Part shown: piece by piece, positions 8,976 to 16,992 of the stretch
Numbering within the stretch: position 1 is the stretch's first letter
Layout of the letters: each line of letters opens with the position of its first letter
Source: Emticicia oligotrophica DSM 17448
Lineage (GTDB): Bacteria; Bacteroidota; Bacteroidia; Cytophagales; Spirosomataceae
Length of the DNA stretch: 64,000 nt
Assembly: GCF_000263195.1 (NCBI RefSeq)
Contig: NC_018748.1
Coordinates: 186,001-250,000, forward strand
Direction of reading: 5' to 3'
Position numbers and translations under genes: made by a program
Notes under the pieces: model-generated
Told to the model about the DNA's origin: nothing
Seen by the model: the letters and a program-made list of their open reading frames with translations, nothing else
Databases searched by the model: none

Positions 8976-9006
8976 CAAAGTTAGAAGTTTTATTTTTATT
9001 TACAAA
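8976..9006 (-). promoter_or_regulatory. Distal promoter between the IS and rplC
   Basis: TTTG (9003-9006) is followed after exactly 19 bp by TAACTTTG (8976-8983) on the minus strand, a perfect match to the Bacteroidota consensus. It reads away from the insertion sequence toward rplC. The left IS end is only 28 bp upstream, so this promoter was spared by the insertion or created near it. Confidence 0.75.
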
Positions 9007-9033
9007 CGTTTGGTGGAAATATTTTTTAATTTA

Positions 9034-9892
9034 AGACCTGTTTAAATTTTATTCAATAAATGTTTTATAGCAGAGATTTTGACAATTTCTTCTGCTGTTT
9101 CCATTAATAATTCGTAATTGCGACACATTCTTCGGTCATTGTCAAACCAAGCAAAGGTTCTCTCAACAATCCACCTTTTTGGTATTGGCTCGAAAGGTTT
9201 TTTGGGTTTGTCTGTCCGCAGAGTAATTTTAAGAAGATAGCCGAAATTCTTCTTTATTTCAGCTACCAAGTCTCCTCGATAACCGCCATCAGCCAATATG
9301 ATTTTAACGCTACTCAGGAAACTCTTTAAAATTCTCATTAATAGTAAAGCAGCTTGACTATCATGAATATTAGCCACAGTTACCATTACAGCAATCAAAA
9401 AGCCATTTTTATCTACCACTACATGCCGTTTAATACCCTTTATTTTCTTATTGCCATCAATCCCATTTAATGACCGATTATTACCCCATCTTACACTTTG
9501 ACTATCAATTATTCCAAGACTGGGTGAGAAATTCTGACCTTTTTGAAGGCGTACTTTACCTCCTATTTTTTCTAATAAAGCATCAAATTCTTCCAAATCT
9601 ATCCATTTCTTGAAGTAATAATAAACTAATTGCCATTTAGGGAAGTCTTTCGGAAGCATCCGCCATTGACAGCCGGTCTTTGTCAAGTATAAAATAGCAT
9701 TCCAAATTGTTCGTAAACAATGTTTTCGTTTCCTGTTGTTATAGTTTAAAGCTTTTTTGATAAATTGCCCCTGAGCATCTGATAAATCGGTTGAATACAT
9801 CTCTTTTAGGTTTGGTCACTTCAAAGAAAGTATTTTATTCCCATTGTTAGATGCTCATATTTTTTTTAATCACCTATTTTTAAACAGGGTCT
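9034..9892 (-). mobile_element. Complete IS5-family insertion sequence
   Basis: The element is about 859 bp. Its left end reads AGACCTGTTTAAA and the inverted right end AGACCCTGTTTAAA, i.e. terminal inverted repeats of about 13-14 bp with one single-base indel. Each end is flanked by TA, the likely 2-bp target duplication. It encodes one intact transposase. It separates the ribosomal operon from the AT-rich accessory genes. Confidence 0.85.
9042..9800 (-). CDS. IS5-family DDE transposase
   Basis: The 252-residue protein catalyses cut-and-paste movement of its element. The N-terminal DUF4096-type region (SDAQGQFIKKAL, then GCQWRMLPKDFPKW) precedes an RNase H-like core with the first Asp in LGIIDSQSV (about residue 100), the second in IILADGGYRG (about 170) and the Glu in RWIVERTFAW (about 213). 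All three catalytic residues are present and the frame is open, so it may be active. Its stop codon lies inside the left inverted repeat. Confidence 0.93.
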   Translation of the reverse strand: MYSTDLSDAQGQFIKKALNYNNRKRKHCLRTIWNAILYLTKTGCQWRMLPKDFPKWQLVYYYFKKWIDLEEFDALLEKIGGKVRLQKGQNFSPSLGIIDSQSVRWGNNRSLNGIDGNKKIKGIKRHVVVDKNGFLIAVMVTVANIHDSQAALLLMRILKSFLSSVKIILADGGYRGDLVAEIKKNFGYLLKITLRTDKPKKPFEPIPKRWIVERTFAWFDNDRRMCRNYELLMETAEEIVKISAIKHLLNKI

Positions 9893-9909
9893 TAGTTAAG
9901 TGTATAAAT

Positions 9910-11067
9910 TCAAAATCTGTAGTCTATGTTTTTTTTGAATTTAGTATTAATAGCTTTATTGTAATTCTCCAAGTTTTCACATTTTCCACACAACAAAATA
10001 GCCTTTTCTTCCGCTTGAATGGCTTCATCGTATTGTTTCAATTTGTTTAAAATATGTGCTTTTGTATCAAAATATTCTGGTTTTTCTTCTATTTTAAGTA
10101 CTGTGTTTACTAATTGAAGAGAAAGCTCTGTATATTTATCTTTTTCATAAATATTCCAAGCTAAATTATTCATATAGCTAACCACATTCCATTTTAATCT
10201 TGTAATAAGGTATTTTTCAAGCTCTTTTTCAGGTAAATTTTTTACCCCGTAAATATTTAGTAATTCTTTAAAAAATGTTATTTTAACATCTATTATTTTT
10301 TGTTTATCAAGTGCTAATAATTTATTTGAGTATTTTTTTATGAGAGAATCATCACATTCATCATTGTAATAAGTGTCGTAGTCTTCTAATAATTCATAAA
10401 TTTTGTCATTTTCCAAAGAAGTTAAACGGCCAAACAAATCTGCATTCGATTCTATATCTAAATCAAGTTTCCTTAATTCATTCCATTTTTTTTTACAAAA
10501 ATCACTTAGATAAACTTTTTCAATAGATTGCAGAAATCTCCTGTAAGTAATCATATCTCGGTAATACTTATTTTTAGAAGATTTTAAAGGCATATTTACA
10601 AAGGTCTGAAACCCTAAATCATTTACACTCCTCGACCAAGTAATTATGATTGGCAAAAAACTTTCGAAAAAAACGGAATCTTCAGGCATTTCTTTTAAAT
10701 AATTTATCACATAATCATTTTTATTATCAAAATCATAGATTGACTCATTTATTGCTAAACTTTTCAACAAAATGGGTTTTAGTAGCGTTTTATCTCCTGA
10801 AATCTTATACTGGTATTTTAGAACCCATAAATCACCTAAATATTTTTTTAATTCAGTATCCGAAAACTCTTCTCTTTCTTTTAGATTATAATATACATTA
10901 AACGGAAGAATATTGTCAAACTTCTCCTTTAAATGTCTTTTAGGATCATTCTGAACTGCTTTTTTTATTGCATTGGCAATAAAATCGCTGTTTATTTCTT
11001 GTGTAAAAGAAGTAATTTGTATCAGCAAGATTGGGATTATAAGTGAAAGAATTTTCTTTAACGCCAT
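9910..11067 (-). CDS. Exported protein of unknown function, TPR-like C-terminus
   Basis: The function is not recognised. The 385-residue product begins with a Sec signal peptide (MALKKILSLIIPILLIQITS, cleavage probably after SFTQ). The rest is Lys/Glu/Asn-rich and mostly helical. Near the end, AHILNKLKQYDEAIQAEEKA looks like a tetratricopeptide repeat, followed by a CGKC pair. It starts one base after the stop of the 747-residue gene, so it is the last gene of a tight three-gene operon. AT content is visibly higher than in neighbouring housekeeping genes. The right end of the IS lies 18 bp beyond its stop codon. Confidence 0.8.
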   Translation of the reverse strand: MALKKILSLIIPILLIQITSFTQEINSDFIANAIKKAVQNDPKRHLKEKFDNILPFNVYYNLKEREEFSDTELKKYLGDLWVLKYQYKISGDKTLLKPILLKSLAINESIYDFDNKNDYVINYLKEMPEDSVFFESFLPIIITWSRSVNDLGFQTFVNMPLKSSKNKYYRDMITYRRFLQSIEKVYLSDFCKKKWNELRKLDLDIESNADLFGRLTSLENDKIYELLEDYDTYYNDECDDSLIKKYSNKLLALDKQKIIDVKITFFKELLNIYGVKNLPEKELEKYLITRLKWNVVSYMNNLAWNIYEKDKYTELSLQLVNTVLKIEEKPEYFDTKAHILNKLKQYDEAIQAEEKAILLCGKCENLENYNKAINTKFKKNIDYRF

Positions 11068-11068
11068 T

Positions 11069-13312
11069 TTACTTTTTATTTATGTAAGTGTCAAAATAAC
11101 CACATTCATGTATAATTTCTTGATAATATTTGGTTTGTTTATAATTGGTTTTTAATTCGGCGAAATACTTTCCCGCTTTAAAATCACCTTTATAGTCTTT
11201 AGGTCTAATTCGATAAAATTCATTTTGTTCACATTTTGCTAGCATAAATGTACACATTGCCTTAAATTCATTATTATTACTCATTTCAAGAGCTTTTTTG
11301 TAATATATTGCAGCTAGTTGACAATCATATATTTTACTTTTTAACATACCACGCTCTTTTTCAGATTGATAGTCTAAATAGTCAAAATTAACATCATAAT
11401 TATAAGCAATAGATGTTTGATAAAATTTTCGAGCATTACCAAAATTTGTAATATTGTAATAGGCATTAGCCACTTCAAATAACAAGTGTGCTTTTTCTTC
11501 CACATTTGTAAGCCTATCGCTTTCCTTTTTTTTATTATTTATTCGTTTCAAAAAAGATAAAATCGTAAACTTTTCTTTTTGGTCTGCTTCATGGTCGCAA
11601 TCGTGGCAATCTTTAATATGTATAATAAATGGGTCTCCTAATAAGGTATCAGTTCCTGCTTTTACATTACTTTCAAGTTTTATTATACTTTCTGGCAGAT
11701 TATCATTATATACATTAATAATAGCTTGCGTTTCTAATAACCTGTCTTTTGAAAAAGCATACATTTTTTTCAGTAGTTTTTCATAATCATTCTTAGCAGG
11801 TGTATTGATAAATTTGATTGTTTTTTCAAGGTTTTCATCGTCTTCATAATAAAATCCGACCGAATGAGTTTGCCAACATTCGGCTTTTAAAAATTCTTTC
11901 TGTTGCTTGTAAATCATCGAAAAACGACTACTCAACCACTGTACAGCCATAGTCTTTCGTAAATACACATCTGTATCATTTTCTAATATAAGCAGAATTG
12001 ATGGCAGTAATTCTATTTCTGTTTTTTCATTTAAAATAGTTTGAGCTTTGATTTTATTAATTGCACGATATAAGTTTATACTTTTTTTCAAAAGTTCATC
12101 AGTTGATTTGCTTTCTGCTTCTTCAAATTGCATTTCTGCATTTTTCAAATCATTTGATAAACTATACAGATATCCTAAAGCTAAATGCCAAACAGCGTTT
12201 TTTTTATTTTGTGGAGATATTAATCCTTTTTGAATTGTTTGTATCAAAACAGCATTCGGTTTTTTATCTACCAATTCTTTTACAGAGTGATTCAAAATAT
12301 TTTCCTCCTCTATATTTATTGCACGTGTCAATAATACATCAAGATAAGGACTATTGATATTTAATGCTAATATTTCTTTAATTGCACGAGTTGCGTCATT
12401 TAAGTAACCCATCATAAATAGAATAGTGGCTTTTTCTTTATTATTTTTTGCTAAAAACAATGAGGCCTTAAAATCTTTTTCTTCCTGTGGATGAAAACTC
12501 CACAATGCTGTTTCCTGCATTAATTCGCAATTTTCAAAAATTAATGAATAGTAATAATTTGACATACTATACACTTTTCTTTTATATAAAGCGGCAGCTA
12601 CATAGCCCAATGCTCTATAATAAATATTACCATTAGGAGTGAAAAATGCTTTGTTTTTCATAAAGAATGATTCACATCCTGTATAATCTTCATTAAAATA
12701 CAACAAGCGTACAACTTGAAAAAGATAACGTTCTTTAATAAATAAGGATTTAAGATTTATTCCTTGTCGAATCCCTCCTTTGATTAATTTTAACAATAAT
12801 TCATTGTCTTTAAAAATAATAGGAGTATAAGTCCAATCATCATTACCATGATTAGCAAATATTTCACAACGAAGAGCAAAACCTAAATAAAACAAAAAAT
12901 CAAGACTTTTTTCTTTATCTGAGTAATTCAAAATTGCTTTTTTTCTTAAACGTTGGCTAATTTTAGTGTCAGGATTTTTCAAGAAAAAAATTAGTGTATC
13001 TATTTGAGGCAGCGTGCTTGAATATAGTATTTCTTTGATAGAAGTAGTATCAAGTTGTTTATCAAAATAATTGTACCAATCGGTAACATTTTGTTTATAA
13101 AAACCTTGTGTTTTTTCCGCATCTCCATAATACAAGGATGAGGTTGTTCGAAAAAAAGGTTCAAGTTTTTTTTCATGGATAAGTTCTGGTGCGAATAGGG
13201 AATTCTCATAATCTCGCCCATACCCATTTTTAAAATCATCGCCACCAGCACAAAAAGCGAAAATCAAAACTACACTAACGGAAAAAAGAGCTAATTTGAG
13301 AAAATTCTTCAT
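11069..13312 (-). CDS. Large exported helical-repeat protein, probable lipoprotein
   Basis: The function is not recognised. The 747-residue product starts with a hydrophobic signal (MKNFLKLALFSVSVVLIFAF) followed by CAGGDD, compatible with a lipoprotein Cys although -1 is Phe. The body has scattered TPR-like pairs, e.g. HLALGYLYSLSNDLKNAEMQ near residue 375 and AIYYKKALEMSNNNEF near residue 690. The segment HIKDCHDCDHEADQ near residue 565 is a Cys/His cluster that could bind metal. Its start overlaps the end of the upstream lipoprotein gene by 38 bp, which implies translational coupling. Confidence 0.8.
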   Translation of the reverse strand: MKNFLKLALFSVSVVLIFAFCAGGDDFKNGYGRDYENSLFAPELIHEKKLEPFFRTTSSLYYGDAEKTQGFYKQNVTDWYNYFDKQLDTTSIKEILYSSTLPQIDTLIFFLKNPDTKISQRLRKKAILNYSDKEKSLDFLFYLGFALRCEIFANHGNDDWTYTPIIFKDNELLLKLIKGGIRQGINLKSLFIKERYLFQVVRLLYFNEDYTGCESFFMKNKAFFTPNGNIYYRALGYVAAALYKRKVYSMSNYYYSLIFENCELMQETALWSFHPQEEKDFKASLFLAKNNKEKATILFMMGYLNDATRAIKEILALNINSPYLDVLLTRAINIEEENILNHSVKELVDKKPNAVLIQTIQKGLISPQNKKNAVWHLALGYLYSLSNDLKNAEMQFEEAESKSTDELLKKSINLYRAINKIKAQTILNEKTEIELLPSILLILENDTDVYLRKTMAVQWLSSRFSMIYKQQKEFLKAECWQTHSVGFYYEDDENLEKTIKFINTPAKNDYEKLLKKMYAFSKDRLLETQAIINVYNDNLPESIIKLESNVKAGTDTLLGDPFIIHIKDCHDCDHEADQKEKFTILSFLKRINNKKKESDRLTNVEEKAHLLFEVANAYYNITNFGNARKFYQTSIAYNYDVNFDYLDYQSEKERGMLKSKIYDCQLAAIYYKKALEMSNNNEFKAMCTFMLAKCEQNEFYRIRPKDYKGDFKAGKYFAELKTNYKQTKYYQEIIHECGYFDTYINKK

Positions 13313-14279
13313 GTGAAAAATGTGAAATATTTGTAGAATCTAGGTCAAAGAATATGACATTTGAAGGACGTTTTATGTGTTTTGATAACAAGTTTACTGC
13401 TTGATAAAGCTCTTTTGTGGAAATCTTTTCAATAAAAATTTCATCATTTTTTTGAAAATAAATTCCTCTCCAATATTTCCCTTCTAAAAATTGAAAATGT
13501 TGTTGATTTATTATATTGACAAAAGTTTGTTGTTTTAGTTCACTATCATCAATTTTTGAAAGTAAATTAATGATTTCACCATTTCTCAAAACATAGCCCC
13601 AACGAAAAATTGGTAGAGCAACATCTAAAGAAAAAGGATACTCTTTTATAGATTTGACATATTGACTGGCATCATAGGTATTATAAATCGAATTTTTTTT
13701 AAAATTTCCAAGTTTGCCCATATTATAGAACATTAATACACCTTTATCGCAAGGAGGAATTCCTGTTTTAAAATAATATTTTATTTGATGTAATCGAATC
13801 GTAACTGAAACTTTTAGACTTCTCTTTATTTTTAATTTCTTTAAAAAGGCAAAATATTTAGACTTTGTAGCATCACTCCAGTCACAATCTATCTGAATTT
13901 CAGTATTATTTTTAATTCCAATAGTTTTATTTATTTTGTCTACCAATTCGAGCGTTTTATTTGATAAACTTTCTATTTCTCTCTCAGATAAATTAATAAA
14001 TACCTCATTCTTGATATATATAACTGGAATAATAATTAAGTCTTTGAATGTTGATTTTGGAAAATAAACCTTTGCTACTGGAATGGGTTTGCTGTTCCAC
14101 TTAATATCGAAATATCTTACATAAATACTTGAAGAATGTGTTAATAAATGTTTTTCGTTTTTAGTCAATTTAACAGTTGGCTTCCAATAATAAAATGCAT
14201 ATTTAGCATCATTACTACTTTTATTGTTGCATGACAAACACAAAATAACAATTATTGAATATATATTAATATATTTCAT
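13275..14279 (-). CDS. Lipoprotein with TIM-barrel/glycoside-hydrolase-like features
   Basis: The 334-residue product has a lipoprotein signal (MKYINIYSIIVILCLSCNNK). The segment EIQIDCDWSDATKSKYFAFL (about residues 130-150) resembles the strand-4 region of GH18-like barrels, where acidic residues follow a beta strand, and LKVSVTIRLHQIKYY, KGVLMFYNMGK and FSLDVALPIFRWGYVLRNG look like further barrel strands. Catalysis is not proven and a family cannot be named. It is the first gene of the trio and lies just after the 901-residue gene (7 bp). Confidence 0.75.
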   Translation of the reverse strand: MKYINIYSIIVILCLSCNNKSSNDAKYAFYYWKPTVKLTKNEKHLLTHSSSIYVRYFDIKWNSKPIPVAKVYFPKSTFKDLIIIPVIYIKNEVFINLSEREIESLSNKTLELVDKINKTIGIKNNTEIQIDCDWSDATKSKYFAFLKKLKIKRSLKVSVTIRLHQIKYYFKTGIPPCDKGVLMFYNMGKLGNFKKNSIYNTYDASQYVKSIKEYPFSLDVALPIFRWGYVLRNGEIINLLSKIDDSELKQQTFVNIINQQHFQFLEGKYWRGIYFQKNDEIFIEKISTKELYQAVNLLSKHIKRPSNVIFFDLDSTNISHFSHEEFSQISSFFR

Positions 14280-14286
14280 AATTCTC

Positions 14287-16992
14287 CTATTTCAACTTCA
14301 CTGTCCAAACTTCAAAGTTAGACTTATTGGGATTATAAATGAATAATTTATTGTAAGCTTCCGAGTAAGTTATGGCTGGTAAACTACTGGCAATCAATGA
14401 TTTATTTCCTAGCAAATTACCTTTCAAGTCGAAGAATGTATTATTCTTTCCATCAAACACAGTAATGATTCGAATATCATGCCCTAAATCAAAATACTTA
14501 AGTTGAGCTTTCAAGAAATTGGTATTTTCAATTTTAAGTACCGATGCACCTTGCTTATTAAAAATAAGCATAGATGTTGACGTACGGCGTACTACCAACC
14601 AATCCTTATGATTTTGGTCGAATAATAACTCGAAAATCGTGCCCTTGTCGGGTCGTTCTAATTGCACACTTGCCTCATTGAGGCTATTTCCGAGCATATC
14701 TACTTTTTTTATCTCACCGATTTCTGAAACTAATGTAAGAACAGAGTTTTTATTAGCATCTTCCTCTATTATCATTCCTATCGGGCGAGCCGTAAGAGGA
14801 ACTTTAGGAAATCCACTTAAGCTGTGACCTTGTTCATACAAAACGCTTAATGTACCATCACGCTGCAAAACCGCCAAATAGGTATTATTTTTATATTTTA
14901 CTGGTGAAATCTGAACAATGTTTCCGAGTTGTAAAGAAGTACGAACTTGTGAAACTTTTTGTGTTTCTTCATTCAGTAAATATATTTTACCAGCTCCATC
15001 AACAACATATATTTTGGTCTCGCTTACAGCTAATGCCTTCACCCCCCCTACTAAATCAAGCTCTGGTTTACTCGCTACAATACCTTGAACAGCATCACGA
15101 CTTAATACAACTAAATCGCTGGGGGTTGTGCTGAGATAATGCAAGAGCCCATCTTGAAAATAATCTGTAGGTAGTAAATAATTTGTGGCAATTTCCTGAC
15201 CCAATGCAATTGAATTAATCTCTTTGGCATTGTTTGAAATTAACTTAAGCTGTTGATTTGTCTGGATGATAATTTCATCATTATTAGATGGCGTCTTTAT
15301 AACATTAGGCATACCGATAATTGGTGCTCCCATCGATAAGCTATCTTGCAAGAAAAATTTATTTAAGATATTTTCTTTCTGTGTTTGTGGTATTTTTTCA
15401 ATTAATAGCTTAGTTCCGAATTTATTATTCATTACAAAGTTTTCTATCGCAATAAATCGTAAGTCTTTAATTCTACCTTCATGCTTTTCGGTGGAACTTT
15501 GCCATTTTTTGGGTAATGAATAAAATATATTATTCCAAATTCGCTGTGGACTAATCATGGCTGTTACTTGCGATTGTGGACTTAGACGTGCAATAAAATC
15601 ACGGTATAAATTAGTTTTAGCCCATGTTTGTCCAGTATTGAGATTATTCAGATAATCTCGCATGGCATCGTCATCGCTGGCCAAAATAATGTAATCATCT
15701 TTTTGGGTATAGTAACAATCTGAGAAACCTCTAAAAACTGAACCAAATAACATAGCGGGCAGCTGACTTACCTGAATCTTGCGAACATAGTTATTCAAAT
15801 AAGTAAAAGGTTGTGGCTTGAAATAACTTGATATCTTTTCGGCATCAGTGGCCAAATCATCAAATAAATTAAGTGCCTCTGCCGAATCGTCAGTTTTTAT
15901 TAGAAGAATCTTCTTCGAAGGTTCATCAGCTGAAGTTTCCATTTCACAAAGCACAATCTCATCTTTCAAAAAAGAATAAAAACCATTGATATTGGCATTG
16001 AGCAAGCGATTCACACTATCTTTCTCAGCTACTAATTCAGCTTCATTATTTTTTAGATAAGCAATGAAATCTTGTGCTAAAGTAAGTTTATTTTTAAAAC
16101 TAAGTCGAATAGCGATAGCTGTGTTTTCAGGAATAAGAGCCGCACAACCAAAGGGTTGAGGTTTTTGTCGAGCAAAAATTCCTAAAAAAGGTATTGAGTT
16201 GGTTCCTTTAGAATGAATATAAGCAGAAATAATATTAGGTACTTTTTGCTTTTCAAAAACAATATCTGGATTTCTCGGCGTAATATTACCGAAAAACTCA
16301 ATCAAATTGGGCGATAATTGAGATGGCAAAATATCTGCAACATCTTGCAGGTTTTTACTCTTAAAGTAAATGTGAGCAGTTCCTTTACGGCTCTCTTTGA
16401 AAGGTGGTAATTCGAGCGAAACACCAGATTTTATTCGATTAGCCACTTCTTCAAGCAAAACTTTTGAGGCACTACAAATCAGGAAATCATCGTGAACAAA
16501 GAAATTAAATAGCAGACGGCTATTGATATCATACAATTCATTAATTCGCAAACCCTTAAAGTTTCGACTATACACCTTCCTTTTGGTGGCATCAGGAACA
16601 AGTAAATTATTTAAAAAAGATTCATCGCCAAACGAGCCAGCGGGAATATATAAAATGTATTCGAGGTTTTTCTTATTTTCTCGATGAAGTGAATAGGTAA
16701 TTAATTTTTTCTCTACAAACTTTTTTGAGAGCTCTTGATTATCAACACTTTCGGTTACTTTTTTTAATTGAGCCAATGCATCATAGAAAAAAGGAATATC
16801 AGAAAGCTGAGTTGGGTCTGTTTTCTCGAAAAGTGATTGTTGTATTTCGGCACTTTCAACAACTAAAAAAGCATTTTCTGGTACAAAACTCCAAGCATCT
16901 TTGCGAGGAGCCAACCAAATTTTATAGGCAATTAATACAGCTGCTATTAAAAGAATGGCATTGATATACCAAATATGTTTTGCTTTTATCAT
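14287..16992 (-). CDS. Membrane-anchored DUF3352-like protein with C-terminal propeller-like region
   Basis: The 901-residue product has one N-terminal membrane anchor (IWYINAILLIAAVLIAYKIW) and a large extracytoplasmic part. The opening SFVPENAFLVVESAEIQQSL is the pattern of DUF3352-type proteins, common and uncharacterised in Bacteroidota. The last ~300 residues have repeated short beta strands (KALAVSETKIYVVDGAGKIY, NTYLAVLQRDGTLSVLYEQG) that suggest a beta-propeller. It heads the leftward gene group and is divergent from mnmE. The function is unknown. Confidence 0.8.
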   Translation of the reverse strand: MIKAKHIWYINAILLIAAVLIAYKIWLAPRKDAWSFVPENAFLVVESAEIQQSLFEKTDPTQLSDIPFFYDALAQLKKVTESVDNQELSKKFVEKKLITYSLHRENKKNLEYILYIPAGSFGDESFLNNLLVPDATKRKVYSRNFKGLRINELYDINSRLLFNFFVHDDFLICSASKVLLEEVANRIKSGVSLELPPFKESRKGTAHIYFKSKNLQDVADILPSQLSPNLIEFFGNITPRNPDIVFEKQKVPNIISAYIHSKGTNSIPFLGIFARQKPQPFGCAALIPENTAIAIRLSFKNKLTLAQDFIAYLKNNEAELVAEKDSVNRLLNANINGFYSFLKDEIVLCEMETSADEPSKKILLIKTDDSAEALNLFDDLATDAEKISSYFKPQPFTYLNNYVRKIQVSQLPAMLFGSVFRGFSDCYYTQKDDYIILASDDDAMRDYLNNLNTGQTWAKTNLYRDFIARLSPQSQVTAMISPQRIWNNIFYSLPKKWQSSTEKHEGRIKDLRFIAIENFVMNNKFGTKLLIEKIPQTQKENILNKFFLQDSLSMGAPIIGMPNVIKTPSNNDEIIIQTNQQLKLISNNAKEINSIALGQEIATNYLLPTDYFQDGLLHYLSTTPSDLVVLSRDAVQGIVASKPELDLVGGVKALAVSETKIYVVDGAGKIYLLNEETQKVSQVRTSLQLGNIVQISPVKYKNNTYLAVLQRDGTLSVLYEQGHSLSGFPKVPLTARPIGMIIEEDANKNSVLTLVSEIGEIKKVDMLGNSLNEASVQLERPDKGTIFELLFDQNHKDWLVVRRTSTSMLIFNKQGASVLKIENTNFLKAQLKYFDLGHDIRIITVFDGKNNTFFDLKGNLLGNKSLIASSLPAITYSEAYNKLFIYNPNKSNFEVWTVKLK

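Follow-up and report, generated by a model that had tools for sequence, protein, structure and literature searches.

A horizontally acquired copy of a conserved Bacteroidota gene pair in Emticicia oligotrophica, encoding a predicted GH18-type barrel lipoprotein and a TPR-like helical solenoid

Analysis of a 64,000-nucleotide stretch of the Emticicia oligotrophica DSM 17448 genome (contig NC_018748.1, positions 186,001 to 250,000; hereafter the window) showed that two overlapping genes, A and B, constitute a two-gene module found across the Bacteroidota, and that the copy present in the window was horizontally acquired as part of an AT-rich insertion that has an IS at one end. The A-B module probably binds or processes envelope sugars. 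In the explanation that we favour, and to which we give about an even chance, A and B form a module of the envelope, with A binding or processing a glycan and B acting as its scaffold, the window carries an acquired second copy of this module, and a third gene, C, is a passenger.

The organization of the locus is given in Table 1. A sequence-only reading of this DNA had pointed to three tightly packed, AT-rich ORFs beside an IS, and this description was borne out, all three ORFs being on the minus strand. The reading frames of A and B share 38 nt and a single nucleotide lies between the stop codon of B and the start of C, while a Shine-Dalgarno-like AGGAG overlaps the stop codon of gene D and ends 4 nt before the ATG of A. 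The GC content of A, B and C was 0.257, 0.285 and 0.263, respectively. These gene values compare with 0.344-0.423 in four native neighbours and 0.351 and 0.373 in a native A-B pair of the same genome. For the segment 9896-14287 the value was 0.272, and the lowest value for a segment of this size sampled elsewhere (200-nt steps, with starts outside 5.5-14.3 kb) was 0.345. The mobile element encodes an IS5-type DDE transposase and is bounded by terminal inverted repeats, as expected for the IS5 family; one full and two partial matches to it were counted in the genome. Searches against Pfam and NCBIfam left A, B and C below the cut-off of every model, and PADLOC and PDB sequence searches returned nothing above cut-off for A or B. 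The product of gene D looks exported and has no domain above cut-off; the gene was found in all 11 genomes of the genus that were sampled.

Table 1. Features of the A-B-C insertion and its borders (window positions)
Feature	Position	Strand	Description
Gene A	13275-14279	minus	ORF, 334 aa, lipobox-like LCLSC
Gene B	11069-13312	minus	ORF, 747 aa, KDCHDCDHEAD at residues 567-577
Gene C	9910-11067	minus	ORF, 385 aa, signal-peptide-like start
IS5-family transposase	9042-9800	minus	252 aa; NF033580 181 bits (cut-off 110); DDE_Tnp_1
IS element	9032-9894		bounded by imperfect inverted repeats (9032-9046 and 9879-9894), each with TA at its outer end
Whole insertion (IS + C + B + A)	9032-14287		at the rplC-D boundary; missing from relatives
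Gene D	14287-16992	minus	901 aa, native neighbour genus-wide

Comparison with the ten other genomes of the genus showed that in five of them (L172, L173, L174, L176 and L180) rplC follows D and the insert is missing. At the DNA level, sequences corresponding to the window from 14288 onward and up to 9005-9031 abut within 26 bp in four of these five genomes; in L180 the match is looser and ∼350 bp of other sequence separates the two flanks. Among the remaining five genomes, four had no rplC within 1.5 kb after D and one was cut by a contig end, and the insert had no match in any of these five. The empty sites in relatives thus indicate that ∼5.26 kb, from 9032 to 14287, was gained. The genome also carries a native second A-B pair (G000:C5:1165316-1168772). 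Homologues of A were detected in 72 of 150 genomes of the family (own genome included) and, within the genus, in 8 of the 10 other genomes; among those family genomes only that of the window showed two full copies of A, and G128 and G129 have split pieces. Phylogenies of A and B were obtained by quick searches, and the terminal branches leading to the window proteins are long (1.03 for B and 1.2 for A). In the B tree (63 rows), the window B clustered with B proteins from other Bacteroidota, mostly of the CHDCDH type (28 rows, SH-aLRT 98), and the native B grouped with its own family (20 rows, SH-aLRT 100); constraining the window B to its own family was rejected by the AU test (p-AU 3e-70). 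The A tree was poorly resolved, and an origin of the window A within the family was not rejected (p-AU 0.264), so that transfer, which the sequence-only reading had already suspected, rests on the empty site, the composition and the B tree. A plasmid search with A gave no match. A divergent A-B pair was observed on a 103.6-kb IMG/VR contig (L203, IMGVR_UViG_3300021256_004135) that is classed as viral; the pair may belong to host flank.

Profile searches in 296 genomes of the phylum detected A in 37 genomes, B in 38 and both in 36, and according to their coordinates the two genes were adjacent and in the same direction in 34 of these 36 genomes. In G305, A lies at the end of one contig and B at the start of another, and in G327 the two genes are on separate contigs. 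The A of the only genome with A alone (G378) is a fragment, and the two genomes with B alone contain short weak pieces (E 3.5e-5 and 6e-4). Likewise, in named genomes (80 loci, kept from 116 relatives), A was located directly upstream of B in 78 loci, one A being cut by a contig end, and the contigs of the other two start 53 and 75 nt before B. The genes overlapped in 94 of 97 pairs measured. The pair was seen in 14 of 17 genomes of genus g46, where eight genomes have two pairs, some of them split, and it is also carried by named Flavobacterium species, F. johnsoniae CI04 included. The genes surrounding A-B, including the one after B, vary by lineage, and no gene context tying the pair to a named glycan pathway was found among the A-B loci compared. 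A and B are hence a two-gene module, and the trio is not a unit: the co-occurrence elsewhere that had been anticipated for the three genes held for A and B but, in the loci examined, not for the trio. A description of the pair was not found in open-licence PMC literature. Two records deserve mention: one G305 contig (L155:1-7051) contains three tandem B genes, a local expansion of B, and in the B tree the B of a record titled Klebsiella pneumoniae MAG (L045) groups with Flavobacterium, so the record looks mis-binned.

In 12 genomes of genus g31, A corresponds to the C-terminal part of an 838-893-aa frame. This genus belongs to the same family as the genome of the window, and in its fused frames (L152, L204-L213) a polytopic membrane domain of ∼450 residues forms the N-terminal part. 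Each of ten N-terminal parts has 7-10 hydrophobic spans, and GxGGFRPQHFDY is common to them. Neither Pfam nor NCBIfam matched any of eleven N-terminal parts, PDB sequences gave no significant match, and a comparison with 23 other loci around A or B did not reveal the domain there. Our impression is that it resembles GT-C glycosyltransferases. Because the fusion puts A beside a multi-span membrane domain, it points to the envelope as the place of A; signal sequences also support an envelope location, in agreement with the envelope system that had been suggested from the sequence.

Structure prediction gave an AF2 model for A (pLDDT 92.2, pTM 0.88, from 32 sequences). The best PDB match in Foldseek was SleL (4s3j, E 8.5e-12), and the first 29 rows were GH18-type, followed by weaker GH113, GH5 and other barrels. 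A second structural aligner returned 50 rows, all of them chitinases or GH18-type relatives, with a best Z of 19.9; SleL and a putative chitinase aligned at Z 19.9, 3.6-4.0 Å over 275-279 residues. A is predicted from this model to be a GH18-type TIM barrel lipoprotein. A barrel lipoprotein with no known domain had been proposed; this holds as regards curated sequence models, but the predicted fold is a known one. At the sequence level, an hhalign comparison of the A profile with GH18 proteins of relatives remained under 1% probability with a crude GH18 profile, and the 13 families that 32 A members matched at E up to 0.1 did not include PF00704. DUF3142 (PF11340), whose function is likewise unknown, matched the window A weakly, at 12.1 bits (cut-off 30) over residues 99-160, and, with the same limit on E, 3 of the 32 members (best E 0.0061). 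A search of 61 phylum genomes for DUF3142 detected neither this family nor any of the controls, and therefore carries no weight.

Like GH18 chitinases and SleL-type spore cortex-lytic enzymes, A combines the predicted barrel with DxDW on strand 4, MxY on strand 6 and, in its model, a beta-rich insertion between strands 7 and 8. Unlike them, it has Ser/Thr for the catalytic Glu and Asn for the Asp after Tyr, shows no detectable sequence similarity to them, and is a predicted lipoprotein with a near-constant TPR-like partner gene. The strand 4 motif of A reads QIDCDWS (residues 129-135) and that of strand 6 reads MFYNMG (183-188). In 97 A sequences, the position after DCDW (residue 135) was Thr in 71 and Ser in 26, and MxYD read MxYN in all 97 (Asn in 112 of 114 in a wider set). 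Residues Q129, D131, C132, D133, W134, T160, R162, H164, Q165, K167, M183, Y185, N186 and E284 were invariant in the 97 sequences. As controls we used GH18 proteins from relatives of this genome: by script, 12 of 13 loci yielded a frame with the motif and the remaining locus yielded none, and one long frame was dropped. The 11 that were kept show DxxDxDxE, and 10 of them MxYD. In these controls MxYD lies 56-77 residues after the second Asp of DxxDxDxE, and the Met of A lies 52 residues after D131. Since motif and strand order are shared with GH18, the catalytic Glu maps to residue 135 of A, a correspondence set by motif and strand order and not by residue-by-residue superposition. Replacement of the GH18 Glu by Ser/Thr and of the MxYD Asp by Asn makes ordinary GlcNAc-assisted hydrolysis unlikely. 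Thus, of the putative hydrolase that had been suggested here, the hydrolase-like fold was recovered but the GH18 catalytic Glu motif is missing.

The AF2 model of B (pLDDT 84.2) is nearly all helical solenoid. TPR matches were sub-threshold in the window protein and reached 4.4e-5 at best among homologues, and comparison with PDB structures returned generic solenoids only. According to these predictions, B is an exported, TPR-like helical solenoid and apparently a lipoprotein, with an atypical lipobox in the window copy (F20, where 93% of 110 homologues have Ala). Acidic residues after the presumed lipid Cys are reminiscent of the signal for surface export known from some lipoproteins of Bacteroidota. 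Two or more of them follow this Cys in 72 of the 115 B homologues that have it (130 in all), whereas among A homologues the count is 9 of 98 (115 in all); these counts are too crude to support a conclusion. The Cys/His cluster that the sequence-only reading had placed in a repeat protein is present, but it falls in a lower-confidence loop (548-583, with pLDDT below 50 at 571-573) and not in a repeat. Among loci that were not chosen by motif, the exact KDCHDCDH was found in none of 29 B proteins of the family and in one of 20 fetched phylum-wide, plus two variants. Of the loci that supplied the 97 A and 110 B sequences, 80 had been collected by a pattern scan with KDCHDCDH as one of its patterns, and the frequency of the cluster in those sequences is therefore biased. 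Judged by the sequences compared, the cluster is a mark of one B clade only.

Gene C had no full-length relative in 150 genomes of the family or 395 of the phylum, and none of the other A-B pairs examined had C as a neighbour. At E up to 0.01 its matches, nearly all of them to the TPR tail, occurred in 31 of the 150 genomes of the family, and at E up to 0.001 in 12 of the 395 of the phylum, with the genome of the window counted in both cases. Residues ∼110-373 of C align to the C-terminal TPR part of thioredoxin-TPR proteins (hhalign 96.6%, E 5e-10), with a profile of 8 proteins (7 with WCGPC); of the 14 matched loci considered for this profile, the other six were short or belonged to a different type. 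C therefore resembles the C-terminal part of these Bacteroidota proteins of ∼410-470 aa, and differs from them in having neither the thioredoxin domain nor its CxxC. Of the two helical-repeat partners that had been assigned to A, B is nearly always beside it but C is not part of the conserved pair, and C would be a passenger outside the module.

In the mechanism that we propose, A would be anchored at the outer membrane as a lipoprotein and its GH18-type barrel, with a modified pocket, would recognise a sugar chain, as suggested by the fold, the co-conservation of A and B and the overlap of their genes. The otherwise invariant motif residues of A would bind an envelope glycan, or process it by a route other than that of GH18. 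On the same grounds, B would contact A and be its dedicated TPR-type scaffold at the outer membrane.

Other readings of the locus have to be weighed against this one. A could be an active enzyme with a rebuilt GH18 site, using D131/D133, E284, H164 or another acid, to which B delivers or positions the substrate. The phylum-wide invariance of 14 residues seems to exceed what simple binding would require, and the Glu position is occupied by Ser or Thr only rather than by mixed residues; however, the Glu of DxDxE and the Asp of MxYD are both substituted in all 97 sequences, and we consider such an enzyme possible but rather doubtful. A three-part machine with C as a fast-evolving subunit would fit the start of C 1 nt after B and its equally low GC, but it is very improbable given that C is absent beside the other A-B loci examined, that the gene after B depends on the lineage and that matches to C elsewhere are nearly all to its TPR tail. 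It is also improbable, although slightly less so, that the acquired copy is a decaying passenger without function here and that only the native pair works: the presence of that pair elsewhere in the genome and the atypical lipobox of the window B would agree with decay, but none of the three frames is disrupted and the invariant residues of A and B are retained.

The reading to which we give the least credit is that the pair serves the Type 9 secretion system, with B related to the TPR lipoprotein SprE/PorW. Like these proteins, B is a large exported helical-repeat protein with a lipobox, and SprE (8gl8_I) was its best VIA match (Z 12.6). However, the superposition has an rmsd of 14.3 Å over 379 residues, the Z value falls in the range that the tool gives for unrelated helical repeats, the Foldseek E was 0.014, and the genomic partner of B is A. 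All 36 genomes with A-B had a SprA match (in G416 only at E 9.3e-4), compared to 228 of the 296 overall; as SprA occurs in that many genomes and in 136 of 140 genera sampled, most SprA genomes being without A-B, this co-occurrence says little. RemZ, a component of the structure entry for the T9SS translocon, was considered separately as a possible glycosidase partner of SprE and was dropped as a candidate, as it is described as a secretion substrate and a homologue of the adhesin RemA (PMC10994853).

Our preferred reading thus remains that of an A-B envelope module with a glycan as its ligand. Its relevance lies in that 36 of the 296 Bacteroidota genomes sampled share a tight two-gene module for which there is no curated domain name, and in that a predicted GH18 fold has both key catalytic side chains replaced phylum-wide, which would represent either a large glycan-binding pseudo-enzyme family or a new use of the barrel. 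Tentatively, and as a possibility well short of even, A-B may be an undescribed envelope-glycan machine of the Bacteroidota, in which A would be an enzyme or receptor with a rebuilt GH18 site, guided by a TPR-type lipoprotein, fused in one genus to a membrane domain that may itself be a glycosyltransferase, and movable between families.
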